From positions 1,914,273 to 1,978,272 of the forward strand of contig OX291561.1 in the NCBI GenBank assembly GCA_946406115.1: 64,000 bases of DNA, read 5' to 3'. The notes under the pieces were generated by a model that was given only the letters and a program-made list of their open reading frames with translations, made no database searches and had not been told where the DNA came from. Source of the stretch: Apoda limacodes. Lineage: Eukaryota > Arthropoda > Insecta > Lepidoptera > Limacodidae. Within the stretch, counting starts at the first letter, position 1. Every line of letters begins with the position of its first letter. Of the stretch, positions 27,469 to 63,572 are shown piece after piece. Position numbers and translations under genes: made by a program.

Positions 27469-28134
27469 ATTAAAGATATTGACAGTTTCCACTTTATTAT
27501 TTTACTCTAAACTAATAAATATAAGTGTTTGGATATACGTGCGGATATTATTTACTATTTATAACTGCTGTGTCGTTTAATAGATACAATAAATTAGGTT
27601 GCTATGTTTGATGAAATTATGAACTATTATTGTATTTTTTTTCCGCAATAGGTATATAAGCCGACGAAGTGGAGATGGAAAACTAAATTACATGAAATCT
27701 TACGTTATCCACACTCACGATTTCCCAGAAACCATTTATCGTCTCATAATTCGGAATTCAATTTCGATTCAAAATCAATAAGATTTATAGTCCGCCATAC
27801 TTTTTAGCAAAGCTACAACTGTAGCTGGCTAGATTTGTGTAATAAAATGACAAAAAACTAATTCTGTTTAAATTCTTTGAAATTTCTAATAAAATACCGA
27901 CATTGTCGTGATTTATGCGGCATCTTAGATAAATTTTCTTGTCTTTTTAATTTCCTGTTTGTATCACGTGCAACGTCGGGGAACTCACCTACTGATTTCG
28001 ATGTGTAATAAGTAGTAGTATTGAAGCACAATGTGCCCTCAATCTTTTCCATTGTTTCAGGATACCAATGCGTCCAGCGACAATATACAGTCAGGAATGC
28101 AACGACACGTGGCAATGACCAGTGTCATTACAAA

Positions 28135-33280: not shown

Positions 33281-33885
33281 TCAAACCTCCTTAGATTAAA
33301 CAGTTTAAAGTGAAGGATATTACTATCACTAGAACATAGTTTTATTCTGTGCTAGAATGATGCAGCGATGCACGAAATATTTGAATCCACTGTTACCAAA
33401 AAAAACATTTTTTTAATAAAGTATACTTTTTACAAGATTTTCTTTTCTAGTATTGTTGGTGGTATTACTATCATTGCAGACCGTTGGTTAAGTAAATTCT
33501 ACAAAAATTAGTAGTTAAATGACGGTACAAAAGTGCTGTTTAGATTTTTCAGTTCGACTCAATTTACCTCTGGGCTAAAAATATGACATTTTAATATTTT
33601 TATTACGATGTGCTTAGTGACCTACACAGGGTTAATACAAGAAACAAGGATAAATTGGAAGTTCCAAAATATCGTCTTCAAAAGACGACAAAAAAAAAAG
33701 TTAAAATAATCCTTTCGTTATAAAAAGTATTTTTTTTTTCAGAACATGTTAATTTACCCTCGAATAAATTAAAAGTCTCTATAAAGCTGACGTAGCCAAG
33801 TCATAAGGCCACGATGCGACTTATACCACATTTTTTTGCTATTTCTTTGGTAATTTTTTGCCAAAAAATTGATTTTTTTGCTCTA

Positions 33886-33955
33886 CCGGTTCCGAGATAC
33901 CATGGTCCTGCTAGCTTTAGACTAAAGCTAGCGTAGCCACCTTCGTATCTCCGGA
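33886..33955. promoter_or_regulatory. Palindromic hairpin in the left repeat
   Basis: A perfect 23-base palindrome with a one-base centre (33910-33932, half-site 'gctagctttag') lies inside a wider imperfect inverted repeat whose arms are 'ccggttccgagatac' and 'gtatctccgg'. The same structure is at 50763-50832. Its role is unknown; an origin, packaging or recombination signal is possible. Confidence 0.6.
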
Positions 33956-34371
33956 TCTATTGCACCTATCAACACGAGGTTTGCACCCTATTATTTTGCT
34001 ATTACTTATAAAGTATGGTTACGTTGAAACTAAAAAAATACGAACTTGTTCAAATAACACATATTGATTTTGTAATTACTATTGCCAAATTATATAATAC
34101 TTTAGAGGTAAATACGCAAAAAAACCATAAGTCCTTTTGTCGTAAGCTTGTGCTAACTTATTAACTTGGATCACTGCATATTGATTAACATTTTTGTATT
34201 AATACGTAACGAAAGGCCGTTCCACAACCGATGCAGTAGTGGCACCAAATTTAAAGCCTGGGAGGATTCAAGTAGTAGGGAGGTACGGGAACTGGCTCAA
34301 CTTTGAGGGGCCTCTGAGGGGGTTATTGGGGGCCCGCGAAAAAGCTCTCTACACACTCGCGGATCATATGT

Positions 34372-34600
34372 GAATCAACTTTATTCGCGGTCTAATTATT
34401 TTAATTCGCGGTCCAATTATTTTAATTCGCGTGTGGGTCAATTTTATTCGCGGTCTAATTATTTTAATTCGCGTGTGGATCAATTTTATTCGCGGTCTCA
34501 TTATTTTCATTCGCGTGTGGATCAACTTTGTTCGCGATCTAATTATTTTAATTCGCGGTCCAATTATTTTAATTCGCTTGTGGATCAACTTTATTCGCGG
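34372..34600. repeat. TIR minisatellite, left copy
   Basis: Tandem units of about 27 and 42 bases are built from 'attcgcggtctaattatttt' and 'gtgtggatcaa' modules. Open frames on both strands (for instance an R-I-K-I-I-x-P repeat) follow from the repeat and are not taken as genes. The mirror copy is at 50125-50355. Confidence 0.85.
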
Positions 34601-35259
34601 TTCTATGAAATGTTCTGCGTGCAGTGTCAACAATGGTTTTTAACAACAATAGATAATTCATTATTTAGTTTCTTTCAGTTTCTTTTATCTACGAGGTTTA
34701 ATTTTTTGTAAGTCTCTGTGGGTAGCAACGATTTCTGGTAATAATGAATTGTAATAACAATAAGACGTTGATTTATTTCTTAAATGCCGTGGGAGGTCCC
34801 TGCTAACAGGTTGATACATGTTTTACTACGAAGAGGCGTCATCTTTAGAAATTTTTTCAATTGAAATTATTTATTTAAGCTCTGTGACAAGCAAATACAG
34901 CTACTTACAATGCCAATATGGATTGTGATAACAAAAGATAACTTATTGTTTGGTGTCCTTTATTTTGAACTTAAGCTTTAAAATTAAGACGACAGATTAT
35001 TTCTTCAATGCACTTCCGAGGAGGTCTGTTAACAATTAGACACATGTTATCTATAGAAATATTTTCTATTAAAAATATTTATTTAAGCTCTTCGTCATGC
35101 AAACATTCCGATACCAGGTACTTACAATGCCAATATGAATTGAGTGATAACAATAGATGGCTTATTGTTTAGTTTTTTTTTTTTCCGACGTTGATTCATA
35201 TCGTGTGAGGTCTCTGTCATATCCTGTTGGAACACGCAAAGACATGTAGGCTATAACCA

Positions 35260-35300
35260 TATATATAAGGAACCACAGTAAAATTCACACTGCAGTCTTA
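35260..35300 (+). promoter_or_regulatory. TATA box and initiator in the left repeat
   Basis: 'tatatataag' lies at 35260-35269. 'gcagtctt' at 35292-35299 resembles an arthropod initiator, about 30 bases downstream. The first ATG (35353) follows about 60 bases later and opens the two-exon gene. The mirror copy of the TATA box is at 49457-49466. Confidence 0.55.
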
Positions 35301-35352
35301 TTCGTGAGTTTCAAAGTTATACCTACAGTGTTTTGTGTTCATATTCCATCAA

Positions 35353-36421
35353 ATGGAGGTAAGTTTAATTACTTAATTTTCTCGATAGTGTATGTTTTAT
35401 TGTTTTTTCATAATGTATGTGTGTAATTGTTTTATTATTGTCCTGTTTGGTCAAGTGGTTAGTGCAGCTAGCTGCGGAGCCAAGGGTCACGGGTTCGAAT
35501 CCCACAAGGAGCAGGTGTTTTTTGTGATGATTAAACATTTGTTACCGAATCATGGATGTTGTTTATATGTAGTCTATGTACTGATATTCTATGGTTGTTG
35601 TTTCTGGTTACCATAACACAAGTTTAATACTTAGCTTGGGGTCGGAACCATCTATGTGTATACGTTTATGTATATTATTTTATAACGGTATTACATAATT
35701 AGCGTCTAACCAATAGTTAAAGTACTGAGTTCCAATATTATTATTTTTTTTTCTCTTATGTGCTTGTAACAGCAATTAATGTGTGTTAGTATATTATTCA
35801 ATCGAATCAAATAGTGAAGTTTGTTTGTTTATTGTTCTTTAACCCAGCAATAGAGATTATTAGCACTATAAGGAAATTTTATTAATACAATTTTATTAAT
35901 TTCATTTTTATTAACTTATTGTTTTATAATTTTTATTGTTCCAGCCTTTATCCCCGGAAAATTATACGTTAAAAAATTATTACTTTCCTTTGGATATGAG
36001 TCAAGAAGAAACTAAAGACTGTACTATTCAAAAAAATTTGAAAAGCACAACAAAGCGGAATATCAAAAGTATTGACGCATTTTTTGAAAATCCTAAGAAA
36101 AGAAAATCTCAAGCAAAGTCTTCGTGTGTCAGTCAAGGCAATGAAAATGGAATCTCTTATATTTCTACCAATAATGACGACACAACGTCTGCAAGTCACC
36201 TATTAAAAATTGAAATATATAATATGAAAAAGATAAAGGACATACCAGCTGAAGATCATTGGAAATACGCAGACTTAAAAGTTAAATATTATACACAATC
36301 ACAAGACGACCAGCATTATCTAAGTACCCGGGATTCCATATATAATATTACAAAACAAATAGCAATGAACTGTGATTGTAAAAAGTTCTTCATTGAAACT
36401 AAAGATAAGCGGGGATATTAA
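35353..36421 (+). CDS. TIR-encoded two-exon gene, unknown function (left)
   Basis: Exon 1 is only two codons (35353-35358, Met-Glu) ending at gtaagt. Exon 2 (35945-36421) follows a ttgttccag acceptor in the same phase. The product would have 160 residues. It is hydrophilic, with no signal peptide or membrane segment. Residues 42-49 read I-K-S-I-D-A-F-F, close to a PCNA-interacting (PIP) box whose first Gln is replaced. A basic stretch K-K-R-K at 53-56 places Lys at +4, as in PIP degrons, and could also serve as a nuclear signal. A C-x-C near the end (CDCKKFF) is notable. I do not recognise a family; a role in recruiting host replication factors is inference only. The right repeat encodes the same protein with one visible change (Gln to His in YYTQSQDDQ). 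Confidence 0.65.
35442..35515 (+). ncRNA. tRNA-like Pol III sequence in the TIR intron (left)
   Basis: 74 bases with a consensus A box (tggtcaagtgg, 35448-35458) and B box (ggttcgaatcc). The ends can pair as a 7-bp acceptor-like stem (cctgttt with gagcagg, two wobble pairs), but the T stem has two mismatches and no standard anticodon arm forms. It is therefore a tRNA-derived sequence and not a normal tRNA gene. It lies inside the intron of the TIR gene, same strand, and is conserved in both repeats. Confidence 0.55.
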
Positions 36422-36541
36422 TTTCATTCATTCATTTACAACTTCTTAACATTACTTAACAGAGAACGCCAAAGCTTAAAAACAACAATAGATTTACCCC
36501 CACGCTTCATTCAATAACAAGTAGCCATTGTCAGAGTCAGT

Positions 36542-36575
36542 GTATTTAAAGACGGGCAAAAGACTTCTAGTCAAT
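36542..36575 (+). promoter_or_regulatory. TATA-type promoter of the 82-aa gene
   Basis: 'tatttaaag' begins 55 bases before the ATG at 36597. The same 'tatttaa' begins 54 bases before the polymerase start on the other side (48192 to 48138), so the two inward-facing promoters are matched. Confidence 0.5.
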
Positions 36576-36596
36576 ATTTTTTCACCAGCAAACACC

Positions 36597-36845
36597 ATGG
36601 ATGTGTTCAAAGATCGTGAATACGACAAGGATTTGCTTAACATGTGTTTTGAAGCGGAAAGAAAATATTTGTTACTCAATAGTGGTTACTCACTTCCGAT
36701 ATCACAACCATACGAGGAACGTAAAATTAATATTTTGACGGTGATGGACCAGTTGGAGCAAGAAAGACTTGAAAAGGAAATGTGCATTTCATACACACAA
36801 GAAGATTTATCACCATCTTTCTATAGTCCTCAAGATTATGTTTAG
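36597..36845 (+). CDS. Small Polinton protein, paralogue of polymerase exon 1
   Basis: 82 residues starting at the first ATG after a TATA-type box. The frame is open further upstream but lacks an ATG. It sits just inside the left inverted repeat and reads inward, the mirror position of polymerase exon 1 on the right. Both start M-D, then share a Y/F-D-x-x-L-x-x-x-C-x-x-E-x-R-K pattern (here 'YDKDLLNMCFEAERK', there 'FDQQLYELCIQEERK'). The rest is acidic and probably helical. The function is unknown. Poly(A)-like 'aataaa' motifs lie at 36874-36882. It is the only unique-region gene on the + strand. Confidence 0.6.
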   Translation: MDVFKDREYDKDLLNMCFEAERKYLLLNSGYSLPISQPYEERKINILTVMDQLEQERLEKEMCISYTQEDLSPSFYSPQDYV

Positions 36846-36959
36846 CTTAAGAATGTAAAACACTGTTTATTAAATAAATAAATGTTGAATTAAAAATATC
36901 GTTTTTTTATGTAATAAGTTTCCAACAAATAAAACACATAAATTCATAAATCTATAAGT

Positions 36960-37403
36960 TTATTTTAAAAAAATTGCTTTATAAAGTGCTCTTAAAATTA
37001 GATCATTATACAGAGTGTTATTTGAAAAAATGTTTACAAAATCCATCATAGAAATACCAATAGATCTCATAAATAGATACACTAAACAATATTCACCACA
37101 AACTGATGTATAATAATTTTGTATCATTTTTGCATTAAAAAAATATTTTTTAGCGTTCCTTTGCATAAATATTTTATGATATCCAGTTGGTTTTCGGCCA
37201 TATGAATCGAAATATTCACCGAAACCATTTTTGTCTATGTGAATAGCAATCCAATGAGATCCTGGTTTAGTGTCAGGATCTAAGTTACTTACAATATATG
37301 ATGGATACGAAATGAAAACGGGCATGCGATTTGAAGCAAAAACATTGCATTCTGCTAATGGATTAATTTTTTTTAATAATTTACGTATTTCATAAGTATC
37401 CAT
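36960..37403 (-). CDS. PRO: Adenain-like cysteine protease (Ulp1/C5 type)
   Basis: 147 residues. The catalytic layout of adenovirus-type and Ulp1-type proteases is visible: His50 in 'GSHWIAI', an acid in 'GEYFDSYG' (Glu63 or Asp66), Gln95 in 'MIQNYYT' and Cys102 in 'SVCGEYC'. In adenoviruses and Polintons this enzyme matures capsid and core proteins during virion assembly; the role here is taken from the family. It is the last gene of the minus-strand cluster, 74 bases beyond the major capsid gene. Its length is somewhat below adenain (about 200 residues), but all catalytic residues are present and the frame is intact. Confidence 0.88.
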   Translation of the reverse strand: MDTYEIRKLLKKINPLAECNVFASNRMPVFISYPSYIVSNLDPDTKPGSHWIAIHIDKNGFGEYFDSYGRKPTGYHKIFMQRNAKKYFFNAKMIQNYYTSVCGEYCLVYLFMRSIGISMMDFVNIFSNNTLYNDLILRALYKAIFLK

Positions 37404-37477
37404 TACACCTCTCGTAACTACAAAAGTTATTTTCAGAATGAATAAAATAATAGCTTTAGAACAATATATATGTTTTT

Positions 37478-38791
37478 TTAACTATTATAATCTACACTTA
37501 CATCACGATTTTTATTAATTTCTATAATGTTGTCAAATTCTGCATATATAATACAATTTACTGTAGTTTTTAAAGAGTTTTCGAAGCGGACTTCCAATCT
37601 AACACTTCCATGTCTTATTAGATTCCAATGCGATTGTGAATTGGATGAAAGATCTGGGGTTAAATCAAAGGCTAATAAACAGTATCCATTGGCAAATTCT
37701 TCTCTAGATATATCATTACCTTCATTCAAAAAATGAATACCAGTTCCCGAATATAAAGTGTGATATGCTGATGTAAATAAACTGCTATCAAATGAAGGTT
37801 GCAATGTTTTAGAAGGTATTTGTTGGCCATCTACATATAAGCTAAACATATTTAAATTAAAGTTTTGAAAATTATATGGGTTCATATTAAAACTTCCATT
37901 AAAGGCTGAATTATTTACAAAACCAACTATACATCTTTTGGGAACTTGACCTAAAAAAATATTATCAAGTGTTTTTCCTTGGATTCCTGAAGGTAACGTC
38001 ATAACCTTGACTTCCGCACGCGTTATAGGGTATTTGGCAGTAGTGTTGGCTAAAACTTTTTGATGAGCTAATAACACAGAAGGACTTATCCTAGCCCTTC
38101 TTATTAAAAGTGTTGCATCATTGATTTGCACTTTTAACTTTAAATCTGTACTAGATGACATTAAGTTAAATGATTCTTTGGTACGTACTAATTTAATACG
38201 TAATTCAACACCGTTTATCAAAAATTTGTCTTGATTAAATATATCACCATGTAAATGACCAATCAATTCAACTTCCTTGCTATCTTTCGTAAACTGCTGT
38301 CTCTTGGTGTAGCCTTCATTGCTTTCATCAGCAGAATCCATTTTGTTTGAGGTATCTTTATACCACAAACCACATGTAAGATGTGATTTTTTTGCAGCAG
38401 GACCATAATTTAATAAAGTTTCAATATAAGAACGATAGGCATAGGTGTTGTTTGGTGGGGAAACAAGCTTTTGATTTAGATAAACATCCATTTGATTAAA
38501 AAGAGAATGTAACCAGTTATTAACTGGGGCAACACTTGTCGCTGCAGTTAATACAGTTGAATCATGATTTAAAACTCTAACTTTTAATTGGAGTAATGTA
38601 TTAGATAAGTCAATATAGTCTTCTCCTGTACCAGGAACTTGAAATTCTATGGGACCTTCATCACTCAAAGATGAAATCGGTTTATAATGAATCCACTGAC
38701 CATTCTCAATGCTTGTTTGTGTTGTTGGTAATGCAAATAAATCTAATTCAGACTTAGCACATTCACATGAAGTATTATGTAAGAACGACAT
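37478..38791 (-). CDS. MCP: Polinton major capsid protein (hexon-like)
   Basis: 437 residues starting 'MSFLHNTSCECAKSELDLFA'. It resembles the F54H12.2-like proteins, now recognised as Polinton/adintovirus double-jelly-roll capsid proteins. Features are the early 'IHYKPISS' and 'IEFQVPGTGEDYIDL' block, 'NNWLHSLFNQMDVYLNQKLV' in the first barrel, and 'RCIVGFVNNSAFNGSFNMNP' with 'FSLYVDGQQIP' in the second. By family it forms trimeric capsomers of an icosahedral particle. The start lies 15 bases after the previous gene's stop, so the cluster is compact. Uninterrupted and of normal length. The identification rests on remembered family resemblance. Confidence 0.88.
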   Translation of the reverse strand: MSFLHNTSCECAKSELDLFALPTTQTSIENGQWIHYKPISSLSDEGPIEFQVPGTGEDYIDLSNTLLQLKVRVLNHDSTVLTAATSVAPVNNWLHSLFNQMDVYLNQKLVSPPNNTYAYRSYIETLLNYGPAAKKSHLTCGLWYKDTSNKMDSADESNEGYTKRQQFTKDSKEVELIGHLHGDIFNQDKFLINGVELRIKLVRTKESFNLMSSSTDLKLKVQINDATLLIRRARISPSVLLAHQKVLANTTAKYPITRAEVKVMTLPSGIQGKTLDNIFLGQVPKRCIVGFVNNSAFNGSFNMNPYNFQNFNLNMFSLYVDGQQIPSKTLQPSFDSSLFTSAYHTLYSGTGIHFLNEGNDISREEFANGYCLLAFDLTPDLSSNSQSHWNLIRHGSVRLEVRFENSLKTTVNCIIYAEFDNIIEINKNRDVSVDYNS

Positions 38792-38806
38792 TATTATTTG
38801 TTTAAT

Positions 38807-39256
38807 TTAAGAAAAAATATCACAACTATTCTTGTTAAAAACTTTTTTAGTAGTTCTTCTTTTCGTTGCTTTCAGAGCAATGGCTGATCGTTTATTACGT
38901 CTCTTGTTTTTATACCCTGATCCAGTCATAATGCTATCAATTTTACTATCTGCTTTCCGTTTTAAATTACTTGTTGCATCTTTCATGCGAGATTTAATAG
39001 AATCATTCATAGGTTGTGCATTCATCATATCAGACAGGAGACCTACACCCATATTCAATGCTTCTTTACTGACTGCCTTTGCTCCACTCGATAGCAACGG
39101 AAGTACAGATCTAAACAATCCTCCTAAAAAGCTTCCGATTCCATGGCCTCGTTGATATGGGACACCTTTGTAAATGATCCCCACTCCTGAACCAGCTTGA
39201 TGAGAATAATAACTTTCATATGGACAAATACTATGATTACGATTATGAGAATTCAT
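38807..39256 (-). CDS. Polinton minor virion protein, pVI/core-like
   Basis: 149 residues. The N-terminal half has 'YYSHQAGSGVGIIYKGVPYQ', then 'RGHGIGSFLGGLFRSVLPLL', a Gly-rich amphipathic helix of the type proposed to disrupt membranes in Polinton and adenovirus minor proteins. The C-terminal half is very basic ('KNKRRNKR', 'KRRTTKK'), fitting DNA binding in the core. Cleavage by the element's protease near Gly-rich sites is plausible but unproven. Its ATG overlaps the penton stop in an ATGA. The family is widely conserved next to Polinton capsid genes. Confidence 0.78.
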   Translation of the reverse strand: MNSHNRNHSICPYESYYSHQAGSGVGIIYKGVPYQRGHGIGSFLGGLFRSVLPLLSSGAKAVSKEALNMGVGLLSDMMNAQPMNDSIKSRMKDATSNLKRKADSKIDSIMTGSGYKNKRRNKRSAIALKATKRRTTKKVFNKNSCDIFS

Positions 39257-40023
39257 CTTATTCGTTTAAAATGAAGTTTAGCACACGCAGTTCCAAATTG
39301 AAATGGTATTGTTGCACCTGTGTTTGTCCTTATATCTATTTCTATAGTATCAAACTCACGACGCATAACAGGTATATAGTGAGCTGGTGTAAACACATTC
39401 ATTTTATAACCACCGTAAATATATTTTGTTGGGTCTAATGGAACTATTCGTAATAGTGATGTCATTACATCACCCACAATTTGAGGTTGCACAATATCAG
39501 AGTACAAAAAAAGTTGTGAAGGCAATCCTAAAAACAAATTAACAGGACGTTTAGCTATGTTGTTTGCAATTAAATTAGTTTTTGGTCCAAAACCAAGTTG
39601 AAGACTTAGCTGTGGTGACATCCTTAAAGATAAAATGTTTTTATTTTGGGGTGTTAAAGAAAAGAGTTTTGATGTCTCATCAAAACGAAACTTTATACAA
39701 TCTTTTAAAAGGGGATTACTGTTAAGGGCATTTAGAAGCTGATCAATGTCATCATATGTTGTAGCGGGTATGTGGGTTTTATATTCTGCAACACTTTCAA
39801 TGTTGTCGACCAATATTTTTTTTCTAAGATATAGAACATTTTCATGTTCTCTGACATTTAAAATACTAAAAGGGTAATGAAATTCAACTAGTCCTACCAG
39901 CCACTCCCCTTCTAATTTAACTGTTTTAGGAAGCTTCGTCAAAAAGTTTGTTGTTGTATTGTTTGGGAAATAGGTCATTGAACTGTTACTTAACAGAGTC
40001 AAATAAAAGCTTTCTTGACTCAT
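39253..40023 (-). CDS. mCP: Penton-like minor capsid protein
   Basis: 256 residues beginning 'MSQESFYLTLLSNSSMTYFP', with 'NFLTKLPKTVKLEGEWLVGL' soon after. This opening is characteristic of the Polinton/adintovirus minor capsid (single jelly-roll, penton base equivalent at the fivefold vertices). Later 'LGFGPKTNLIANNIAKRPVN' and 'QLFLYSDIVQPQIVGD' also fit. It overlaps the integrase stop by four bases (ATGA) and the next gene start by four bases. Intact and of family-typical length. Confidence 0.85.
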   Translation of the reverse strand: MSQESFYLTLLSNSSMTYFPNNTTTNFLTKLPKTVKLEGEWLVGLVEFHYPFSILNVREHENVLYLRKKILVDNIESVAEYKTHIPATTYDDIDQLLNALNSNPLLKDCIKFRFDETSKLFSLTPQNKNILSLRMSPQLSLQLGFGPKTNLIANNIAKRPVNLFLGLPSQLFLYSDIVQPQIVGDVMTSLLRIVPLDPTKYIYGGYKMNVFTPAHYIPVMRREFDTIEIDIRTNTGATIPFQFGTACAKLHFKRIR

Positions 40024-41108
40024 ATTAATTCAATGTTAGATGCTGGAATCCAGGTATTGAATTTTGATGGATAACCTTTCCACTTGACCAACACTTCTTT
40101 TCTGCCTCTAATATACCTAAAACTTATGATTTTATCTATTTCGTGCTTAAGGGTGGGGTCGTATAAAACTTTTTGTAGTTCTTTAGCATAAAATGTACCT
40201 GATATTGATTCTCCTTCTAAATCATTAAGTGTATAAACTTTATAAGGCGACCTATGAATAATTGATGATATAACAAATACTTCATCACTCCAATTAGTTT
40301 CATAGCCTTTTTGAAATATATGTTTATGCTTAGTTATTCTTACATGGTCACCAATTTGAAACTTAGGAAGCTCTGGATATATATTTTGGTTTTTATTTTT
40401 CCTGTCATATAAATTAGACCAAACAGTCATAATATTACTAGAATTGACGTCACATGGACACATTTTTATACTCGAATGGTAACTGTGATTATATGAATAC
40501 ATCAAATCTTGCAAAATATCTACATATCTATATGTATTTTTGTGAGTGAAATAACGCCACATTTTCATCTTAAGAGTTCTTTGAAATCTTTCTACAATAC
40601 TTGCTTTAATATCTGGATTATTCGTTGTGTAGTAATTTATGTTTTTACTCTTAAAATACCTTCTAACATCTTTTGCAACGAATTCACTACCCTTATCAGA
40701 TTGTATATGTTTTGGAGTTGCGTTAGCTTCTGTAAATATACTTTCAAAGCATTGTATTGTAGTTTCTGAATTCTTTTTTTTCATACATCTTGCAAAAGCA
40801 TATTTACTAAAGACATCAATGACACAGATAATATATTTATAATTATCGTTATATTGACTATAGGTTCGCATATCGCTTAAATCAACTTGCCAAAGGTCGT
40901 TATAGTTAGATAAAATGTATTTATTTCTAGAAAACTTTCTCTGAACAGGTCTATGTAAAGTATATGTTTCTTGCGCCTGTAACCATTTTTTTACTTCTTT
41001 TTTATTCATCTTTCCATCCATAGCTTGGGTTAACTTATCAATACTACTATAACCAGCTGGATTAGAAACATCATAATATATTTTGTCTATATCTAATACG
41101 GTGACCAT
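40020..41108 (-). CDS. INT: Retroviral-type integrase with C-terminal chromodomain
   Basis: 362 residues. The DDE catalytic core is complete: Asp76 in 'WQVDLSDM', Asp138 in 'IQSDKGSEFV' and Glu173 in 'IVERFQRTLK', with 34 residues between the last two. A beta-rich segment ('FQIGDHVRITKHKHIFQKGY', about 250-290) follows. Residues about 322-362 form a chromodomain with 'IISFRYIRGRKEVLVKWKGY'. By family it inserts the linear element into chromatin, and chromodomains can steer such integrases to methylated histones. No clear HHCC zinc finger is seen at the N-terminus. The start overlaps the previous gene by 16 bases. Intact. Confidence 0.92.
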   Translation of the reverse strand: MVTVLDIDKIYYDVSNPAGYSSIDKLTQAMDGKMNKKEVKKWLQAQETYTLHRPVQRKFSRNKYILSNYNDLWQVDLSDMRTYSQYNDNYKYIICVIDVFSKYAFARCMKKKNSETTIQCFESIFTEANATPKHIQSDKGSEFVAKDVRRYFKSKNINYYTTNNPDIKASIVERFQRTLKMKMWRYFTHKNTYRYVDILQDLMYSYNHSYHSSIKMCPCDVNSSNIMTVWSNLYDRKNKNQNIYPELPKFQIGDHVRITKHKHIFQKGYETNWSDEVFVISSIIHRSPYKVYTLNDLEGESISGTFYAKELQKVLYDPTLKHEIDKIISFRYIRGRKEVLVKWKGYPSKFNTWIPASNIELI

Positions 41109-41857
41109 CTTTCCCAGTCAATTTTCTTGCTTTTTATATCTTTTAAAGACGTTCTCGGTGTTTCACTACTGGGCGTAGCATGTTTTTCAGGGGGAGAAGT
41201 TTCTTTAAATTTCTCTATATGTAGTTTCTTAACATACTCCAATGTTGTAGGATTACCGATACAATATAAAGGTAAACTTATATCAGTTAATAACTGAGAA
41301 AATTCTTCCCACCCCCTCGGTTTTGGACGTTTTAGCTGACGTAAGGTATCATTAATCAAATCTACAATATTGGTCCCAGGTATAACCTGCTCATTTATAG
41401 TGATTCTCCCTTGTGTATCCCATTTGACTTTATCATTATTTTCTATCAACGTTTTAATTAGCAGTTCACCTTTTTTTTTAAATTTCCTTGGAATTAATCT
41501 CATTAAATAAAAATAAGAATAGGGCTTATTGTAAACTACGTCCCTCTCTTTGGATGGTGACTGTGTAAGTAATGGTTCAGCTTTAATCTCTTCTTCTTTA
41601 TATTTTTCTGTTAATTCACTGTCATCCGACACCAAAGGCAATTTTAGTGGTTGTCTTTCTTCACCAGTAAAATACAAATATCTTTGTAATGTTTGTGAAT
41701 AGAGCTTCCACTTCTCACGGTCTTCTAATTTCCTACTAAGAATATCCCGCATTTCCTTATCTAGTCGCGACAAGGAAACTTCAGGAATAATTTCTCTACG
41801 TTTGAGCCTTTCTAAGACGTTAGGTTCAATTAATAACATCTTTTTAGCGTTCTCCAT
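41093..41857 (-). CDS. Conserved Polinton protein of unknown function
   Basis: 254 residues from the first ATG (MENAKKMLLIEP); the frame is open 42 bases further upstream but overlaps the previous gene and has no ATG. Features are 'LDKEMRDILSRKLEDREKWK', an acidic linker, and a C-terminal module with 'VIPGTNIVDLINDTLRQLKR' and 'PRGWEEFSQLLTDI'. Proteins with this tail occur beside capsid genes in many animal Polintons and adintoviruses, but no biochemical role is known to me. It starts 4 bases after the 106-residue gene and overlaps integrase by 16 bases. Confidence 0.7.
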   Translation of the reverse strand: MENAKKMLLIEPNVLERLKRREIIPEVSLSRLDKEMRDILSRKLEDREKWKLYSQTLQRYLYFTGEERQPLKLPLVSDDSELTEKYKEEEIKAEPLLTQSPSKERDVVYNKPYSYFYLMRLIPRKFKKKGELLIKTLIENNDKVKWDTQGRITINEQVIPGTNIVDLINDTLRQLKRPKPRGWEEFSQLLTDISLPLYCIGNPTTLEYVKKLHIEKFKETSPPEKHATPSSETPRTSLKDIKSKKIDWERWSPY

Positions 41858-41861
41858 TTTC

Positions 41862-42182
41862 TTATATGACAGAATTGAGCAAAGAACTAAGAACTGCACC
41901 CAAAATTACAGGTAAGAATGCACCACCTTTCTGTATAATTATCTTTTTTCTGAATTTATTTCTTCCTTTAGAAACTAATTTCCTGAGAACCACTTTGTGT
42001 TTTTTTAATTTAGACTTTTCTTGCTCCTTTAAAGGAATTTTACCATTTAAAACATTAAAAATACATTCACAGAGACAGTTTATTTCTTGTTCGTTACAAC
42101 TTTTTAATAGTGCCTCACAATACTTTGGTTTAAGTGTATGTAAAGCTTTTAATAATTCTTTATGTGCCTTAACTCGTCTCAT
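41862..42182 (-). CDS. Small conserved Polinton protein with hydrophobic tail
   Basis: 106 residues. The helical, Cys-containing N-terminal part ('ALHTLKPKYCEALLKSCNEQ') is followed by a basic stretch. It ends in 'IQKGGAFLPVILGAVLSSLL', a Gly-Gly-led hydrophobic helix that could be membrane-active. Related small proteins sit upstream of the conserved unknown in other Polintons. The 80-residue gene just upstream is a paralogue lacking this tail. A lytic or membrane-penetration role is only inference. Confidence 0.65.
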   Translation of the reverse strand: MRRVKAHKELLKALHTLKPKYCEALLKSCNEQEINCLCECIFNVLNGKIPLKEQEKSKLKKHKVVLRKLVSKGRNKFRKKIIIQKGGAFLPVILGAVLSSLLNSVI

Positions 42183-42235
42183 TATTATTAATTATTAAAA
42201 ACATTTGTTTAAATAAATTTTGATAAAATAACTGC

Positions 42236-42478
42236 CTATAATACTGTTGACACTAAACAATTTAAATTTAGGGACCTCAGTGAATATCTCTTCGTTTTTT
42301 TATTTGTTTTTTCTTTTAAATTAATTTTTTCTGCTAAAATAAAATTAAGCTGTTTACAAATATTGTTTAATTCTTCTTTACTAGTTGTTTCTTGTAAAGT
42401 TTTGCAATACTTTCGTTTCAATACTTTTAATATTACACTAAATGAATTATTATTACACGTTGTTACGGTTCCGTGCAT
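42236..42478 (-). CDS. Small paralogue of the 106-residue protein
   Basis: 80 residues. 'VLKRKYCKTLQETTSKEELN' followed by 'ICKQLNFILAEKINLKEK' aligns with 'LKPKYCEALLKSCNEQEINC' and 'FNVLNGKIPLKEQEK' of the next gene. The hydrophobic tail is replaced by a basic segment and a short end. The start overlaps the ATPase stop by 16 bases. It looks like a tandem duplication that diverged. The function is unknown; it could also be decaying. Confidence 0.55.
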   Translation of the reverse strand: MHGTVTTCNNNSFSVILKVLKRKYCKTLQETTSKEELNNICKQLNFILAEKINLKEKTNKKTKRYSLRSLNLNCLVSTVL

Positions 42479-43140
42479 GATGTTGAACTAATTGATATTT
42501 GATCCTTCATATTACATTTAAATCCTTTTTTTGGTATGTAAACAGTACAAAAAATATTATTGAGTGGAAATATATTACTTTTAAAGCGATACATGTCATT
42601 TGTTTTTTGTTTTAGATCTATCATCAAATAACCATGCGGATCACTAGTGGCATCTTTATAGGCTTCCTCTACAAATTTGGAATTATCAGGAAAAACTTGT
42701 CGTGCTAAATGGCGTATTTGAGTTCTGTCCCGAGGATTTTTGAAATAAATTATATAAGAAGAGTTTAGTGAAATATCACGTTGACCTTTACCTTGATGAA
42801 ATAAATTTTGAGTTATATAGAAAACGCTTAAATTTCTGTGATGGCTCCCTTTAGTAAAAATATCAACAACTCGTCCATCCGATTCTCGCATTAGGTCATC
42901 TATAACCAGTAATTGAGGTTCATTACCATCAAACATATTTAAATCTGGAATTCCTTGAGTGTATATAACATTACTAATATTATACAGTGGCTGCATTTCA
43001 TCGTAACACCAAAATATATGCTTAAAATCTGTGTCACATATTTTTTTAGCGCAGTTTATAAAATTTGTAACAAAATTAGATTTTCCACATCCACTCGGAC
43101 CTGCTACTATAGCTGTAAAAGGGTGTGAGAAATGAAACAT
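42463..43140 (-). CDS. ATP: Packaging ATPase (FtsK/HerA-A32 type)
   Basis: 225 residues. Walker A is 'GPSGCGKS' (14-21). Walker B is 'LLVIDD' (77-82), followed by a 'KGSHHRNLSVFYITQNLFHQ' sensor segment with the Asn-Gln typical of A32-like packaging ATPases. By family it powers DNA entry into preformed capsids. It heads the minus-strand morphogenesis cluster. Upstream lies about 600 bases without genes that should hold its promoter, though no TATA box stands out. Confidence 0.9.
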   Translation of the reverse strand: MFHFSHPFTAIVAGPSGCGKSNFVTNFINCAKKICDTDFKHIFWCYDEMQPLYNISNVIYTQGIPDLNMFDGNEPQLLVIDDLMRESDGRVVDIFTKGSHHRNLSVFYITQNLFHQGKGQRDISLNSSYIIYFKNPRDRTQIRHLARQVFPDNSKFVEEAYKDATSDPHGYLMIDLKQKTNDMYRFKSNIFPLNNIFCTVYIPKKGFKCNMKDQISISSTSCTEP

Positions 43141-43757
43141 CGTTTTTTTTTTTAATACGTGTTAGCTTCATAAGGATTTTAAGTCAAATGTCATTTGTTC
43201 ACATTGAACATTAGTTTTAAATAAAATATAGTAATACTATAAAAATCATTTATTAAATATTTTAAATAGTAAAATGTAAAGTTGACAAAACAAATAATTA
43301 GGGTTCCTTTTTCTTTTTTTTTTTATTAAATTAAAACAGTTTAATTCAGGCACAGAGAAAACCAATATACATTGTTAGACATGACTCATCAATACAAAAT
43401 TAAAACAGTTTAATTCAGGCACAGAGAAAACCAATATACATTGTTAGACATGACTCATCAATACAAAATTAAAACAGTTTAATTCAGGCACAGAGAAAAC
43501 CAATATAAATTGTTATACATAACTTATCAATACAAAATTAAAATTAAAATCAAGTCAAATTAGATGAAAATGAACATAACAGTTCAAATTAAAATTAAAT
43601 AATATTTTAACATAATACAAAAATAATTTTACAACTTCTTTACATTTCTTAAACAATAATATATTTTTTAATGAAACACAGTACTTTTTAATTAGATTTA
43701 TAAAAAAAAAATAGTTTTACAAAAAACAATTCAGAAAGTTTTTACATTATTTTCTAA
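43141..43757. other. Gene-free spacer between ATPase and polymerase
   Basis: AT-rich, holding the 69-bp tandem repeat at 43331-43545. It should contain the ATPase promoter and the polymerase transcript end; neither can be pinpointed. Confidence 0.6.
43331..43545. repeat. 69-bp tandem repeat, about three copies
   Basis: Copies start at 43331, 43400 and 43469 with 'ttaaaacagtttaattcagg'. The first two are nearly identical and the third has several changes. Each unit contains 'gacatgactcatcaa' or a variant; 'atgactcat' is an AP-1/bZIP-type palindrome. Confidence 0.9.
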
Positions 43758-46700
43758 CTAAACATTTTTTAAGCTATAATGACCCCATGCCAGAGTATCG
43801 GTAGAATTTGGTTTTATATACCTTTTGCTATCATTGTAAGATAAAGAAACTTTATTACATTTTTGAGTAAAAATTATATGTTTAATAGATTTAAACCGAA
43901 GCATTTTACAAATTTCATTAGTATTATTAAATAAACAATTTTTGTAATTGTCAATTTTAAAGTTTTTGACAATGCTTTTGTTTACACCCTTTGCTTTAGC
44001 AACAAATTTATCTTCCACGTCAATCGCATACATTTTTGAGCGTAGTCCTACAAACTCTCTAAATATTTTACCATTATTTTCATCTTTAAATAATCCTAAT
44101 TTTTTTTTATTTAACAAAGGTATACCATATTTATTGTTAATTTCATAGTCTGAGGTGTCGAAATGTATGGCAACATCTGATTTAATATCGGAATAAAAGT
44201 TTTTTGTAAATACTTGATAAACTAAACTATCTGTATCTGTGTAAAGTAGTTTTAACCTATTCTGAAACTTCACGTTCATATATTCGTAATGGAACTCATA
44301 CATTAGCGTTTTTGATATATCTAAAATACAAAAACCTAAATAAATTGGTTTGTTATATAACATTTTTACCTTTTTTAATTGTATAGCAACTAATGACTCT
44401 GAAAAGATAGATAAACTATGAAATTCAGGTCTTGCTAGCAGTGATTGAGCACCTTGAACATTTCCGCGATTCTCCCAATGAGTCACCAGCTTTACATTTA
44501 CTCTTTTTTCAATATTTTCCATAGTTTTACCGAAAACAGAGTTATTCATTAATTTATAAAAATCCTTTTGAAACTCAGAAACCGCCGATGCACGCAGGTT
44601 AGTATTTAAATCAATGTATTTTTTTAACCAATCACTTTGTTTAAATTTTAAAATTCTATGCACTTTTAGTAATTTTAGTCCAGTTTGTAAACATTGTTTT
44701 AAATTTCGATAATGTATTATGTAGTTATTTTTATTGTTTAAATTTAGAACTAATTTTTTTTCTTTTGTGTTACCAATACATATCTGATCAGGACAAAATG
44801 GAAAATCTGAATGTAAGTCATGTAAATGATCTGGATATTCTAAATCTACTTCCAATATATAACCATATTCTGAGTTATCAGGCACTTGAAAATTAGTATT
44901 TATGTCAACCCATTCAAACTCACTCGTCGGAAGGTATTGTGACATAGCCCAACCATATAGATTATTAGCATCAAGGTAAATTAAATAAGAAGAAGGTAAG
45001 TCACTATTATAATTGTCCATAAAAATATTGTTAGCTTTTGCATAACGGTTACTACATTGAGAAACCCCACCTCTTATTCCTTTTTGGATAAAAGCAAGTT
45101 TATCAAAATCTGTTAAAAGTTCTAACTTTTGTTGAGTATGTTTTAACATGGAATCCCAACTCAATCCAGGTGCAGTATAATACTGTGCAGCATCAAGACC
45201 ATATGTTTCAAGACATAAATTTCGAAAGTTTTCAAACACATCAGCTAATAATAATACATCAGTTTTTAAATACAGATTAGAATAATCTAACATATTTTTA
45301 CAGTTAAAATGATTCCAAACATCATTTGCATGTGCATAGTCCTCGTCAGATACATGCTCGTTATTCAAGGAACTAAAAAAAAATTCTTTTGTTGGTAGTG
45401 TCGTGTTTTGTAATTTTTCATAGGATGTCATAAACTCATAGGGATAAATGCCTTTACGTGTTAAACGGATGAAATCTTCGTTATTTGAAAAATTTTTACT
45501 AAGTTCATGAAATTGATTTGTATCAAGATTTTTTGCTAACTGAGAAAGACTACAAGACATGAATTTGAAAGAATCTACAAACCTTAATTTCATAGTATAA
45601 TTATTTATTTGAATGCACTTTGAAAATGATATGTATTTTTCTTTATTTTGAGGTATTATTTCTATTGCTCCGTCTACACTGTTCAGCGCATGTACTATAA
45701 AGTGACTATCATAATTACTCAAGTTATGCAAAAAAATTGGAACGAATCGCGGGACTTTATAATTTGAAGAGCAAATCGAATGAGCTATTCCTCTATATAA
45801 ACCCGTGTGTGTGTCATAATCTATAACAGACTCATTATTTAAATCTTTTTCACAAATGTAACAGGTTTTACTTTCTAATATATTTCTCTCATTCTCGACC
45901 GATAACGGTTGAGGACTTTTATGGAAACTGTTTTTTTTAGCAATTTGTTTTAAATCATCTACTAGAGACTGCATAAAAACCTTAGCACAGTCCTTTCCAG
46001 TATAGGTCCTATAAGTAGACAGACTATTATCGTACGAACATTTAATATAATAACCGAAGCTATATACTTCATGTTTTTGAATATTATTACTAAACGATTT
46101 GTTTGGGTCATTATCACAACTATGAATTGGTAATAAAAGGGCTTCAAAATCAGCATAAATGACAAATGGAATTTTCAATTTTCTATCAAATTTATCAAAT
46201 GACAATATATTATTTAAAATTGGTTCACCAAACCACATCTTTTTTTTGGGAAGTGAATTAGGTAAATCGGTTTTAATGTGATTACAATCAAACCTTTGAT
46301 GGTTAGTTAATTCATTTTGATTTCTAAATATTAACAAGCACCCGTCACAAATATGAACAGCTTCATTTTTTGATGAAATTTGTTTACTCACTAATCTAGA
46401 TAAATTTTTAATGTAACAATAATGATAATTAGAACCGGTATTAATTAAAAGTAGATTAATGTGTTTTTGTTTTCGACACTTTGTAAAATGAAGCGGTCCT
46501 ACTATTTTATTTTTTTTATTATTTGCATCGTACTCTAAACCAAAGACATTAATACTTACATCATTTAAATTTTCAAATTTATTTATATCCTTCAATTTAA
46601 CGGGAAATGGAATATTATTAAAATTTAATTTATTTTGGTGACTAAAATATGAACAGACTCTATCAGCGTTATTATTTACTGGATATAAGGCTGAAAGCAC

Positions 46701-48138
46701 AGCCCATTGAAAACATTGGTGGTCATAATTTTTCACATTAATTACCGCTTTTTTGTGTTTAATATCTAATGGTAAATCTATATACGATGAACCACGTAAG
46801 GGATTAAATTTATTAACATTCATATCTATATGTTTAATTGCACGTAAGCTCCAGCCGCTATCTTTTTTTTCAAAATTGGAAATCTTATTTGTTATCTCAT
46901 TAATAATCATTGAAAATATTATTTCAAAATCATCTCCACGACAATACACATAGTTAAAAGTTTGGAAATCGAAAGTATTTTTTAAGTTTTTTGTTGGTTG
47001 TATAAAATCAGCATTTAAATTAAAATTTACTTTTATGACGGTTAATTGATTAATGCAATCACTTATTAACTGAAACAAAGTTTCTTTAATACCTTGGAGA
47101 AACGAGTCAGGCGTCTCGAATTCTACCTGGGCTACAGTTTGTTTTGGGGTTATTCTATAGGTTATTATGCGTGCTCCAAATGCAGTTTCAATTAAATGAA
47201 CATTTGAAAACTTTTCATGACATATTATTACATTGTTTTTATGGGAATTACTTTTTAAATGACTAGTAAAATGTTTTTTGTGGATAAAAACTTTACATTG
47301 GGGGCATTCAATCTTATCAATATTTGAACTTACATCTAAAAGAAAAGTAGACGATGCAGCTGCTGATGATGTCGATGGTACTGCTTCAGGGCCACCCCTT
47401 GATGTAGTCGCTTGTGGTTCTGATGTACGAAGTCGTTTTTCCAGTACATTTTCTCCATCTAGAGCAATTTTTCTTTTTCCACCAACTTGGCTGTAAACAA
47501 TAGAAAAAAAAAAACACAATTATTATAAAAAATAAAACAGAAATATATAATTAGAAATTTAGAACATTATAAATAAGTCACATAAAAAAACCATCTCACG
47601 TTTATTTACTATTTTTACAAGAGGTGCAATATGCTATGACCGGTAATAATCCGTCAATTTCATCACCCCCACTGATTAAATGCGTATTACATGGCGTATA
47701 ATACGGTTTAAAGTCTGGATCCTCAATCATTGATTTAGAAAGTTTGCCATTTATAAACCAAAATCTAATATAACGATGGAATCTACTTAAAATAATTGCT
47801 TTGTCGAGTAAAATTATTTCCTCACTAGTAAGCGACCACATTTTGTTAAACTAACAGTAACAATAATCTCAAACCAAAATACATTCTTTTATATGATCCA
47901 CCCCTCCAATGCTATACAATAAGTTGTTACAAATAAAACAAGTCGAGACAAGACAGCTAGTAAACCCAAATACTTACAATGTCTGTTCTTGTTTGTTGCA
48001 CTGGTGATTTTTTTCTTCGTGTAGACATATTTTATAGAGCAATTGATCGTATTCATCAATGAGTTTTCTTTCTTCCTGTATACAAAGTTCATACAGTTGT
48101 TGGTCGAAGTAATCGTTTTGTAAATCTGAAGCGTCCAT
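43758..48138 (-). CDS. PolB: Protein-primed DNA polymerase B, two exons
   Basis: Exon 1 spans 48138-47978 and exon 2 spans 47490-43758. The donor gtaagt (47977-47972) and acceptor tttacag leave a split codon that joins in phase, giving 1297 residues. Two C2H2-type fingers lie near 116-139 ('CPQCKVFIHKKHF') and about 440. The exonuclease motifs are 'YADFEALL' (about 500), 'NYDSHFIVHAL' (about 645) and 'YLKTDVLLLADVF' (about 795). The polymerase motifs are 'YLDANNLYGW' (A, about 893), 'KLMNNSVFGKTMEN' (B, about 1035) and 'LLYTDTDSLVY' (C, about 1138), all with intact catalytic residues. It would replicate the linear element by protein priming. The alternative start inside exon 2 (47519) lies in the intron's polypyrimidine tract, so I prefer the spliced form. 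A small gene sits in the intron. Confidence 0.9.
47602..47841 (-). CDS. Small ORF nested in the polymerase intron
   Basis: 79 residues (MWSLTSEEIILLDKAI...), same strand as the polymerase and wholly inside its predicted intron. A TATA box ('tataaaag' on the minus strand, 47893-47886) starts 52 bases before the ATG. That is the spacing seen for the two other inner promoters. The product has a helical N-terminus and four Cys in 'YYTPCNTHL' and 'AYCTSCKNSK', with no known family. It could be a real small early gene or an alternative exon. Confidence 0.5.
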   Translation of the reverse strand: MWSLTSEEIILLDKAIILSRFHRYIRFWFINGKLSKSMIEDPDFKPYYTPCNTHLISGGDEIDGLLPVIAYCTSCKNSK

Positions 48139-48183
48139 GATGATGTTAGTTTGTATAAGAGTATTGAAAGTGAACGAGGTATC

Positions 48184-48195
48184 GCTTAAATATAA
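48184..48195 (-). promoter_or_regulatory. TATA box of polymerase exon 1
   Basis: The minus strand reads 'ttatatttaag'. The core 'tatttaa' begins 54 bases before the ATG at 48138 and lies just inside the right inverted repeat. Confidence 0.5.
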
Positions 48196-48304
48196 CTTGT
48201 AGCCTAAGTACCTGTGGACGAAGGTGTGAGAAATCTATTGTTGTTTTTAAGCTTTGGCGTTCTCTGTTAAGTAATGTTAAGAAGTTGTAAATGAATGAAT
48301 GAAA

Positions 48305-49373
48305 TTAATATCCCCGCTTATCTTTAGTTTCAATGAAGAACTTTTTACAATCACAGTTCATTGCTATTTGTTTTGTAATATTATATATGGAATCCCGGGT
48401 ACTTAGATAATGCTGGTCGTCATGTGATTGTGTATAATATTTAACTTTTAAGTCTGCGTATTTCCAATGATCTTCAGCTGGTATGTCCTTTATCTTTTTC
48501 ATATTATATATTTCAATTTTTAATAGGTGACTTGCAGACGTTGTGTCGTCATTATTGGTAGAAATATAAGAGATTCCATTTTCATTGCCTTGACTGACAC
48601 ACGAAGACTTTGCTTGAGATTTTCTTTTCTTAGGATTTTCAAAAAATGCGTCAATACTTTTGATATTCCGCTTTGTTGTGCTTTTCAAATTTTTTTGAAT
48701 AGTACAGTCTTTAGTTTCTTCTTGACTCATATCCAAAGGAAAGTAATAATTTTTTAACGTATAATTTTCCGGGGATAAAGGCTGGAACAATAAAAATTAT
48801 AAAACAATAAGTTAATAAAAATGAAATTAATAAAATTGTATTAATAAAATTTCCTTATAGTGCTAATAATCTCTATTGCTGGGTTAAAGAACAATAAACA
48901 AACAAACTTCACTATTTGATTCGATTGAATAATATACTAACACACATTAATTGCTGTTACAAGCACATAAGAGAAAAAAAAATAATAATATTGGAACTCA
49001 GTACTTTAACTATTGGTTAGACGCTAATTATGTAATACCGTTATAAAATAATATACATAAACGTATACACATAGATGGTTCCGACCCCAAGCTAAGTATT
49101 AAACTTGTGTTATGGTAACCAGAAACAACAACCATAGAATATCAGTACATAGACTACATATAAACAACATCCATGATTCGGTAACAAATGTTTAATCATC
49201 ACAAAAAACACCTGCTCCTTGTGGGATTCGAACCCGTGACCCTTGGCTCCGCAGCTAGCTGCACTAACCACTTGACCAAACAGGACAATAATAAAACAAT
49301 TACACACATACATTATGAAAAAACAATAAAACATACACTATCGAGAAAATTAAGTAATTAAACTTACCTCCAT
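48305..49373 (-). CDS. TIR-encoded two-exon gene, unknown function (right)
   Basis: Mirror copy of 35353-36421: exon 1 at 49373-49368 (Met-Glu), exon 2 at 48781-48305, same donor and acceptor, 160 residues. It differs visibly by one residue (YYTQSHDDQ). The PIP-like I-K-S-I-D-A-F-F and the K-K-R-K stretch are unchanged. The element therefore has two near-identical copies of this gene, both transcribed inward. Function unknown. Confidence 0.65.
49211..49284 (-). ncRNA. tRNA-like Pol III sequence in the TIR intron (right)
   Basis: Mirror copy of 35442-35515 with both internal promoter boxes intact. Confidence 0.55.
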
Positions 49374-49456
49374 TTGATGGAATATGAACACAAAACACTG
49401 TAGGTATAACTTTGAAACTCACGAATAAGACTGCAGTGTGAATTTTACTGTGGTTC

Positions 49457-49466
49457 CTTATATATA
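49457..49466 (-). promoter_or_regulatory. TATA box in the right repeat
   Basis: Mirror of 35260-35269, upstream of the right copy of the two-exon gene. Confidence 0.55.
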
Positions 49467-50124
49467 TGGTTATAGCCTACATGTCTTTGCGTGTTCCAAC
49501 AGGATATGACAGAGACCTCACACGATATGAATCAACGTCGGAAAAAAAAAAAACTAAACAATAAGCCATCTATTGTTATCACTCAATTCATATTGGCATT
49601 GTAAGTACCTGGTATCGGAATGTTTGCATGACGAAGAGCTTAAATAAATATTTTTAATAGAAAATATTTCTATAGATAACATGTGTCTAATTGTTAACAG
49701 ACCTCCTCGGAAGTGCATTGAAGAAATAATCTGTCGTCTTAATTTTAAAGCTTAAGTTCAAAATAAAGGACACCAAACAATAAGTTATCTTTTGTTATCA
49801 CAATCCATATTGGCATTGTAAGTAGCTGTATTTGCTTGTCACAGAGCTTAAATAAATAATTTCAATTGAAAAAATTTCTAAAGATGACGCCTCTTCGTAG
49901 TAAAACATGTATCAACCTGTTAGCAGGGACCTCCCACGGCATTTAAGAAATAAATCAACGTCTTATTGTTATTACAATTCATTATTACCAGAAATCGTTG
50001 CTACCCACAGAGACTTACAAAAAATTAAACCTCGTAGATAAAAGAAACTGAAAGAAACTAAATAATGAATTATCTATTGTTGTTAAAAACCATTGTTGAC
50101 ACTGCACGCAGAACATTTCATAGA

Positions 50125-50355
50125 ACCGCGAATAAAGTTGATCCACAAGCGAATTAAAATAATTGGACCGCGAATTAAAATAATTAGATCGCGAACAAAG
50201 TTGATCCACACGCGAATGAAAATAATGAGACCGCGAATAAAATTGATCCACACGCGAATTAAAATAATTAGACCGCGAATAAAATTGACCCACACGCGAA
50301 TTAAAATAATTGGACCGCGAATTAAAATAATTAGACCGCGAATAAAGTTGATTCA
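50125..50355. repeat. TIR minisatellite, right copy
   Basis: Mirror of 34372-34600 with the same number and order of units. Confidence 0.85.
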
Positions 50356-50762
50356 CATATGATCCGCGAGTGTGTAGAGAGCTTTTTCGCGGGCCCCCAA
50401 TAACCCCCTCAGAGGCCCCTCAAAGTTGAGCCAGTTCCCGTACCTCCCTACTACTTGAATCCGGTCGGAATGTCGAACGGCCTATATCGGTTGTGGAACG
50501 GCCTTTCGTTACGTATTAATACAAAAATGTTAATCAATATGCAGTGATCCAAGTTAATAAGTTAGCACAAGCTTACGACAAAAGGACTTATGGTTTTTTT
50601 GCGTATTTACCTCTAAAGTATTATATAATTTGGCAATAGTAATTACAAAATCAATATGTGTTATTTGAACAAGTTCGTATTTTTTTAGTTTCAACGTAAC
50701 CATACTTTATAAGTAATAGCAAAATAATAGGGTGCAAACCTCGTGTTGATAGGTGCAATAGA

Positions 50763-50832
50763 TCCGGAGATACGAAGGTGGCTACGCTAGCTTTAGTCTA
50801 AAGCTAGCAGGACCATGGTATCTCGGAACCGG
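50763..50832. promoter_or_regulatory. Palindromic hairpin in the right repeat
   Basis: Mirror of 33886-33955; the perfect core is at 50786-50808. Confidence 0.6.
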
Positions 50833-51437
50833 TAGAGCAAAAAAATCAATTTTTTGGCAAAAAATTACCAAAGAAATAGCAAAAAAATGTGGTATAAGTC
50901 GCATCGTGGCCTTATGACTTGGCTACGTCAGCTTTATAGAGACTTTTAATTTATTCGAGGGTAAATTAACATGTTCTGAAAAAAAAAATACTTTTTATAA
51001 CGAAAGGATTACTTTTACTTTTTTTTTTGTCGTCTTTTGAAGACGATATTTTGGAACTTCCAATTTATCCTTGTTTCTTGTATTAACCCTGTGTAGGTCA
51101 CTAAGCACATCGTAATAAAAATATTAAAATGTCATATTTTTAGCCCAGAGGTAAATTGAGTCGAACTGAAAAATCTAAACAGCACTTTTGTACCGTCATT
51201 TAACTACTAATTTTTGTAGAATTTACTTAACCAACGGTCTGCAATGATAGTAATACCACCAACAATACTAGAAAAGAAAATCTTGTAAAAAGTATACTTT
51301 ATTAAAAAAATGTTTTTTTTGGTAACAGTGGATTCAAATATTTCGTGCATCGCTGCATCATTCTAGCACAGAATAAAACTATGTTCTAGTGATAGTAATA
51401 TCCTTCACTTTAAACTGTTTAATCTAAGGAGGTTTGA

Positions 51438-63560: not shown

Positions 63561-63572
63561 GCTTATATAAGA

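Follow-up and report, generated by a model that had tools for sequence, protein, structure and literature searches.

Polintons (Mavericks) are already in print for moths, where Sf Maverick 1 and 2, two Spodoptera lineages that share a genome, combine small tandem ORFs with a large POLB and a weak endonuclease VII match in POL (PMC5803895, in the part of the text available). For noctuids, a high rate of horizontal transfer per Maverick copy is also in print, with a peak in Spodoptera frugiperda about 40 Mya. Intact vertebrate Mavericks are described with (AGT)2//(ACT)2 ends, a 6-bp target site duplication (TSD), a characteristic gene set and purifying selection on the core genes (Barreat and Katzourakis, 2021; PMC8097293); according to the accessible part of that survey, Polinton particles had not been observed. 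Drosophila-associated adintoviruses encode PolB, an integrase, a capsid protein, a maturation protease and an FtsK-type ATPase (PMC8363768). The accessible texts also describe a TP-vOTU-PolB layout for Polintons (PMC11071308) and a position of PX one gene away from the capsid gene (PMC4028283).

The family to which the locus analysed here belongs has these vertebrate, Spodoptera and Drosophila traits in common, with polymerase, capsid and ATPase as putative assignments, the likeness to the two insect systems being one of description. The locus lies in the moth Apoda limacodes, in a window (the whole stretch of DNA analysed, 64,000 nucleotides) located in contig C24 of the 800.3-Mb, 31-contig assembly of the species' own genome. 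The window copy is part of a recent burst, in which its family (family 1) stands beside a second young family (family 2), and it is bordered by what looks like mirrored host DNA, which makes its inverted repeats look longer than they are.

Borders and genes of the element

The locus had been taken, in a preliminary description, for one 18,157-bp unit with 3.2-kb inverted repeats. The repeats are indeed present: 33281-36495 and 48231-51437 (3215 and 3207 bp) are near-perfect (99.3% identity), the two sides being told apart by three isolated substitutions (33702, 33706 and 36304) and a single patch of replaced sequence, which measures 31 nt at the left and 23 nt at the right. The single unit was not upheld by the sister copies, whose ends were located by taking 39 other integrase places (from the best 40 of 325 candidates), predicting their ends and extracting 2401 bp around each. 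A Polinton end was present in 52 of these 78 stretches. Wherever an end was readable, the terminus was AGTAGTAGGGAGG or a slight variant of it, equal to window positions 34271 and 50455, and at intact ends homology to the window breaks off at, or a few bases from, these positions, at AGTAGTAGGGAGG. Because the homology of the sister copies ends there, the element is 16,185 bp long with 2,225-bp terminal inverted repeats (TIRs), which differ at one position and end in (AGT)2//(ACT)2 (Table 1).

Table 1. Features of the Polinton and of its flanks, with positions in the window.
Feature	Position	Strand	Remarks
Left mirrored host arm, 952 bp	33281..34232	+	outside the Polinton; contains a common ~233-bp repeat at about 33775-34007
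Non-homologous patch, left, 31 nt	34233..34263	+	no template >11 nt elsewhere in the window
7 nt mirrored at 50456-50462	34264..34270	+	adjoins both Polinton ends directly outside
Polinton, family 1, 16,185 bp	34271..50455	- (strand of main genes)	terminus common to sister copies
Left Polinton TIR, 2,225 bp	34271..36495	+	one substitution vs right TIR (36304/48422)
Subterminal 21-bp tandem repeats, 9.3 copies, in TIR	34383..34577	+	mirrored at 50149-50343
TIR-coded ORF, 141 aa	35996..36421	+	second copy 48305-48730; PIP-box-like IKSIDAFF and basic KKRK; no Pfam match
PRO, adenain/Ulp1-type cysteine protease	36960..37403	-	PDB match ASFV S273R, E 2.8e-4; His, Asp, Gln, Cys motifs
Probable major capsid protein, 437 aa	37478..38791	-	size, place; dN/dS 0.087 vs family 2
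Minor virion protein, 149 aa	38807..39256	-	four adenain-type motifs, basic tail; 3/4 motifs conserved in family 2
Probable penton-like minor capsid protein, 256 aa	39253..40023	-	one gene from capsid gene
RVE integrase with C-terminal chromodomain	40020..41108	-	PF00665 3.7e-14, PF00385 9.5e-11
254-aa protein, unknown	41093..41857	-	present in family 2, dN/dS 0.27
106-aa protein	41862..42182	-	QKGG/A adenain-type motif, then hydrophobic C-terminus; QRGG/A in family 2
80-aa ORF	42236..42478	-	open reading frame
Packaging ATPase-like protein	42463..43140	-	Walker A/B motifs
69-bp x 3.1 tandem repeat	43328..43543	.	between POL and ATPase genes
POL exon 2	43758..47490	-	zinc finger, vOTU-like Cys/His, Exo I-III, Pol A-C motifs, read by eye
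Predicted POL exon 1, 161 nt	47978..48138	-	GTAAGT donor at 47977, acceptor before 47490, open frame
Right Polinton TIR	48231..50455	-	repeat comparison
Non-homologous patch, right, 23 nt	50463..50485	-	no template >10 nt elsewhere in the window
Right mirrored host arm	50486..51437	-	inverted counterpart of left arm

On the minus strand, the genes follow in the order POL, ATPase, 80 aa, 106 aa, 254 aa, integrase, penton-like, 149 aa, capsid-like and protease; several neighbouring frames share 4 or 16 nt, and the 4-nt overlap of the integrase and penton-like genes recurs in the family-2 copy L099. The assignment to a Polinton with the usual gene set is supported by the integrase domains, the PRO match, the termini and the Polinton-like gene row. 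Confirmed, too, was the claim of open frames for protease, capsid-like, penton-like, integrase, ATPase and polymerase proteins with the expected motifs, which we take to be the catalytic ones in the protease, the ATPase and POL; the polymerase probably starts in an upstream exon. The profile searches proposed at the same time succeeded in part, with the integrase identified in Pfam and the protease in the PDB, but no credible match for the polymerase, capsid and penton-like proteins.

PRO had no match in Pfam; judged from its PDB profile match, it is related to S273R of ASFV. The capsid protein had no Pfam match and no credible PDB profile match (one row was an antibody chain, E 0.18), its single-sequence AlphaFold prediction reached a pLDDT of 27.6, and the penton-like protein had no PDB profile match. 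Position and selection suggest that these two are probably the capsid and penton proteins. For the ATPase-like protein, the Pfam match to RNA_helicase was just above the cut-off, and those to Pox_A32 (0.013) and IVa2 (0.017) were below theirs. In PHROGs, the integrase matched transposases only, and the rows were otherwise weak. Scans of viral contigs with the capsid, the integrase, a capsid alignment and the polymerase returned no relatives.

The polymerase gave no PF03175 match in Pfam and no match in the PDB, apart from which a weak endonuclease VII match was noted. Its frame (43758-47519) has no ATG before 46910, and POL is probably spliced, with a predicted first exon 48138-47978 joined to 47490; the same exon layout is seen in one family-2 copy, where the equivalent intron measures about 82 nt. 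Just inside each TIR, the short reading frames 36597-36845 (+) and 48138-47978 (-) start alike (MD...), and are possibly related first exons.

Regarding the non-coding parts, the 69-bp tandem repeat between POL and the row of structural genes is a possible promoter or origin. The AP-1-like site TGACTCA occurs six times in the element, above the ~1.7 expected from base composition; two sites fall within the 69-bp repeat and two form a mirrored TIR pair. The function of the TIR-coded ORF may be hinted at by a PIP-box-like stretch, found under a loosened pattern; this is a lead only. Elsewhere in the window, two open frames occupy 28012-31126, the Polinton following ~3 kb downstream, and the first of them presumably encodes a kekkon-like membrane protein with leucine-rich repeats and an immunoglobulin domain. 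A 63-bp tandem array (6.3 copies, 97%, partly palindromic) lies at the window edge (63572-63968). Rfam and tRNA scans were empty.

Adenain cleaves at [MILNQ]xGx/G or [MILNQ]xGG/x. Four such motifs are present in the 149-aa protein (0.63 expected) and one in the 106-aa protein (0.11 expected), and four of these five are found at the same place in family 2. Cutting at one of the conserved sites would free a basic tail, and at another a hydrophobic one. The penton-like protein has two motifs, neither of which is conserved, and POL has two; none was found in the capsid, integrase, ATPase and protease of the window copy. Copies of the element would spread via protein-primed replication of linear DNA, the integrase would insert them with a 6-bp target duplication, and the element would probably be packaged in a capsid that owes its maturation to the adenain-type protease. 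The AGT repeat of the termini would fit a jump-back start of protein-primed synthesis, for which adenovirus is the analogue.

Copies, age and selection

The search for other copies in the same species, which had been suggested beforehand, revealed dozens of near-identical ones. Among the best 113 of 1966 candidates scored with the integrase, so that the counts are lower bounds, at least 42 loci match at 97-100% (family 1; 34 without and 8 with stops) and at least 66 at 73-74% (family 2; 60 without and 6 with stops), besides at least five relics at 81-83%, all five with stops. A broken integrase shared by family 2 was considered in view of the split frame in L099 and was dropped, the split not being general. 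The capsid search of the genome gave 97 rows (best 96 of 444 candidates scored, again lower bounds): at least 37 full-length rows at 98-100%, of which 36 have no stop, with one copy in two pieces; at least four at 82-83%, all with stops; and at least 54 at 78%, none with a stop and most with the same score. It had been stated that most genomic copies are broken; among the rows scored, this is contradicted by the 36 of 37 full-length family-1 capsid rows and 34 of 42 integrase rows that lack stops, counts which refer to single genes and not to whole elements. The inferred recent arrival or activity is, on the other hand, supported by the 42 or more integrase loci at 97-100% and by the near-identity of the two TIRs.

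Over a 4,089-bp core compared between eight loci (28 pairs), divergence averaged 0.17% (range 0.02-0.37%); because these loci are the best-scoring ones, the family-1 mean is probably higher than this. The penton-like, integrase and 149-aa frames are open in all eight, and the 254-, 106- and 80-aa frames in seven. At a mutation rate of 2.9e-9 per generation, a butterfly value, the core divergence of the eight best-scoring loci corresponds to some 300,000 generations, and the single difference between the TIRs of the window copy to some 80,000; gene conversion could make the TIRs look younger than they are. In the literature searched, of which coverage was partial, no comparable recent Polinton burst in Lepidoptera was found.

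Selection between the families was estimated by the Nei-Gojobori method for six genes, a set from which POL, the ATPase and the protease were left out. Against L099, dN/dS of the window copy was 0.087 for the capsid (0.084-0.086 against L100 and L101), 0.131 for a 252-aa part of the integrase, 0.151 for the 106-aa, 0.191 for the 149-aa, 0.201 for the penton-like and 0.269 for the 254-aa protein; these ratios are rough because dS (1.2-1.9) is near saturation. Of the six values, that of the capsid is the lowest, at a dS of about 1.8. A value of 0.41 for the 80-aa ORF was discarded, its comparison partner being a non-orthologous ORF.

A probable origin of the outer arms

Outside the Polinton, the two 952-bp arms (33281-34232 and 50486-51437) differ at 2 of 952 positions (99.79% identity), and are separated from the Polinton terminus by 31 nt (left) or 23 nt (right) plus the shared 7 nt. 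The arm search was crowded because the embedded ~233-bp repeat (33775-34007) is common, with 1,222 first-look candidates in the genome; among the best 40 of these scored, the full-length arm occurs at only two places in the 800-Mb assembly, both of them here, and the further rows match only arm part 483-728, which is the common repeat. In places, a stretch of 1-2 kb holds several units of this repeat, in both orientations. The outer 492 bp of the arm and its repeat are absent from all 78 ends of the 39 sister copies, where the sole arm-like match is one of 34 nt (88%) to the inner part, in L054.

No 6-bp target duplication flanks the window copy, although both its ends are intact (0 of 6 positions agree, 34265-34270 vs 50456-50461). 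Among the 39 sisters, 23 are left out of the TSD counts, at least one end not being found in the fetched stretch. Of the other 16, eleven have an exact TSD, one more (L049/L050) an exact TSD with extra terminal bases, two match at five of six positions, and two have no TSD and a damaged end; all 14 intact-ended sisters thus have a TSD, which is exact in 12 and has one mismatch in 2. In these 16 copies, the mirrored match adjoining the terminus is at most 3 nt long, and a 7-nt match like that of the window copy would arise by chance with a probability of about 6 in 100,000. The right arm breaks off at a LINE fragment that lacks its upstream part. In our reading, the TSD disappeared when one flank was lost after insertion, and its absence characterises this insertion rather than the family.

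The window copy belongs to a young Polinton family; we consider it probable that the family spread by replication and integration and that this copy later lost one flank by mirroring. After insertion, repair or replication would have switched between the two TIRs and copied about 1 kb of host flank, either side of which may be the original, to the other side as a mirror image; this would have removed that side's target duplication and left a false 3.2-kb inverted repeat. Replacement of one flank by a mirrored copy is indicated because full-length arms occur only here among the best 40 of 1222 candidates, the TSD is missing between intact ends, 7 nt are mirrored and the LINE is cut. The 7 nt carry weight because a normal insertion would not give them. 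The 31/23-nt patch counts against this account, since plain TIR-primed copying does not predict it, and no template for either patch was found in the window.

Alternatively, a palindrome or foldback element may already have been in place and have received the Polinton in its short loop; the patches are non-homologous, like the two halves of a split loop. This unlikely reading is a live alternative because a family-1 copy in C13 (L027, L028, L103, L104) also sits between long inverted arms (2 kb). These arms look like an older element because they contain polymerase-like fragments (about 70% identity) and, further out, repeated sequence, perhaps from a foldback-like Polinton relative; on their inner side, roughly 410 and 350 nt are unmatched, and the left Polinton end there is damaged. 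Nested insertion leaves unexplained why intact ends lack a TSD and why 7 nt are mirrored at both of them, and full-length arms occur nowhere else among the best 40 of 1222 candidates. Dozens of near-identical copies could also have tangled the assembly, the walk turning back through near-identical TIRs or meeting a fold-back chimera; such an artefact is very unlikely, in view of the 2 differences in 952 positions, the patch and the coincidence of the right arm's end with a LINE junction. Highly improbable, finally, is a mobile 18,157-bp element with extended TIRs: its mirrored ends TCAAACC//GGTTTGA would suit it, but the outer borders of 33281-51437 show only a 3-nt match, the sister termini lie at 34271/50455 and no second full arm copy was found among the best 40 of 1222 candidates, on which grounds this candidate was rejected. 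In three other sisters (L053/54, L065/66, L071/72), flank-to-flank matches are of only 70-78%, in one or other orientation, apart from one 28-bp piece, and a further one (L085/86) has a 341-bp LINE match between its flanks (96%).

A further question is whether the families are now purely transposons, whose capsid genes look intact only through the youth of the copies. Eight family-1 loci, compared over six genes (capsid not included), vary at 9 nonsynonymous and 7 synonymous codons and give no hint of purifying selection, which would agree with this reading on a short scale; the capsid ratio between the families, the lowest of six genes, speaks against it, and we judge it unlikely. It is a more speculative, quite unlikely proposition that both capsid-conserving families are live endogenous viruses, now expanding within a single insect species, and that the mirrored flank is a footprint of TIR-primed synthesis. 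If true, such synthesis from an integrated Polinton into host DNA would be a way in which these elements make palindromes.

Significance and comparison with known systems

Two young, high-copy families in which the capsid has the lowest dN/dS of six genes are a good natural system for asking whether Polintons still assemble into particles and pass from host to host. The mirrored flank is also a warning that searches for inverted repeats alone can misplace Polinton borders, for the correct placement of which sister copies and target duplications are needed.

The family differs from vertebrate Mavericks, which are described as intronless, in that its POL looks spliced; those are described with at most 38 intact copies per genome, whereas more loci with open capsid or integrase frames were counted here, a comparison of single genes that is not like for like (PMC8097293, in the part available). 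The Sf Mavericks, likened by description and not by sequence, are reported to have a PLA2-type CAP, and the authors found no PY protein in them (PMC5803895); no match to any PLA2 family was obtained here at E 0.1 for the ten proteins scanned (80-aa ORF excluded). The Drosophila-associated adintoviruses are known as contigs of 13-15 kb (PMC8363768, likewise in part). The Polinton kind itself is known; what is notable here is the recent two-family burst together with the mirrored flanks.
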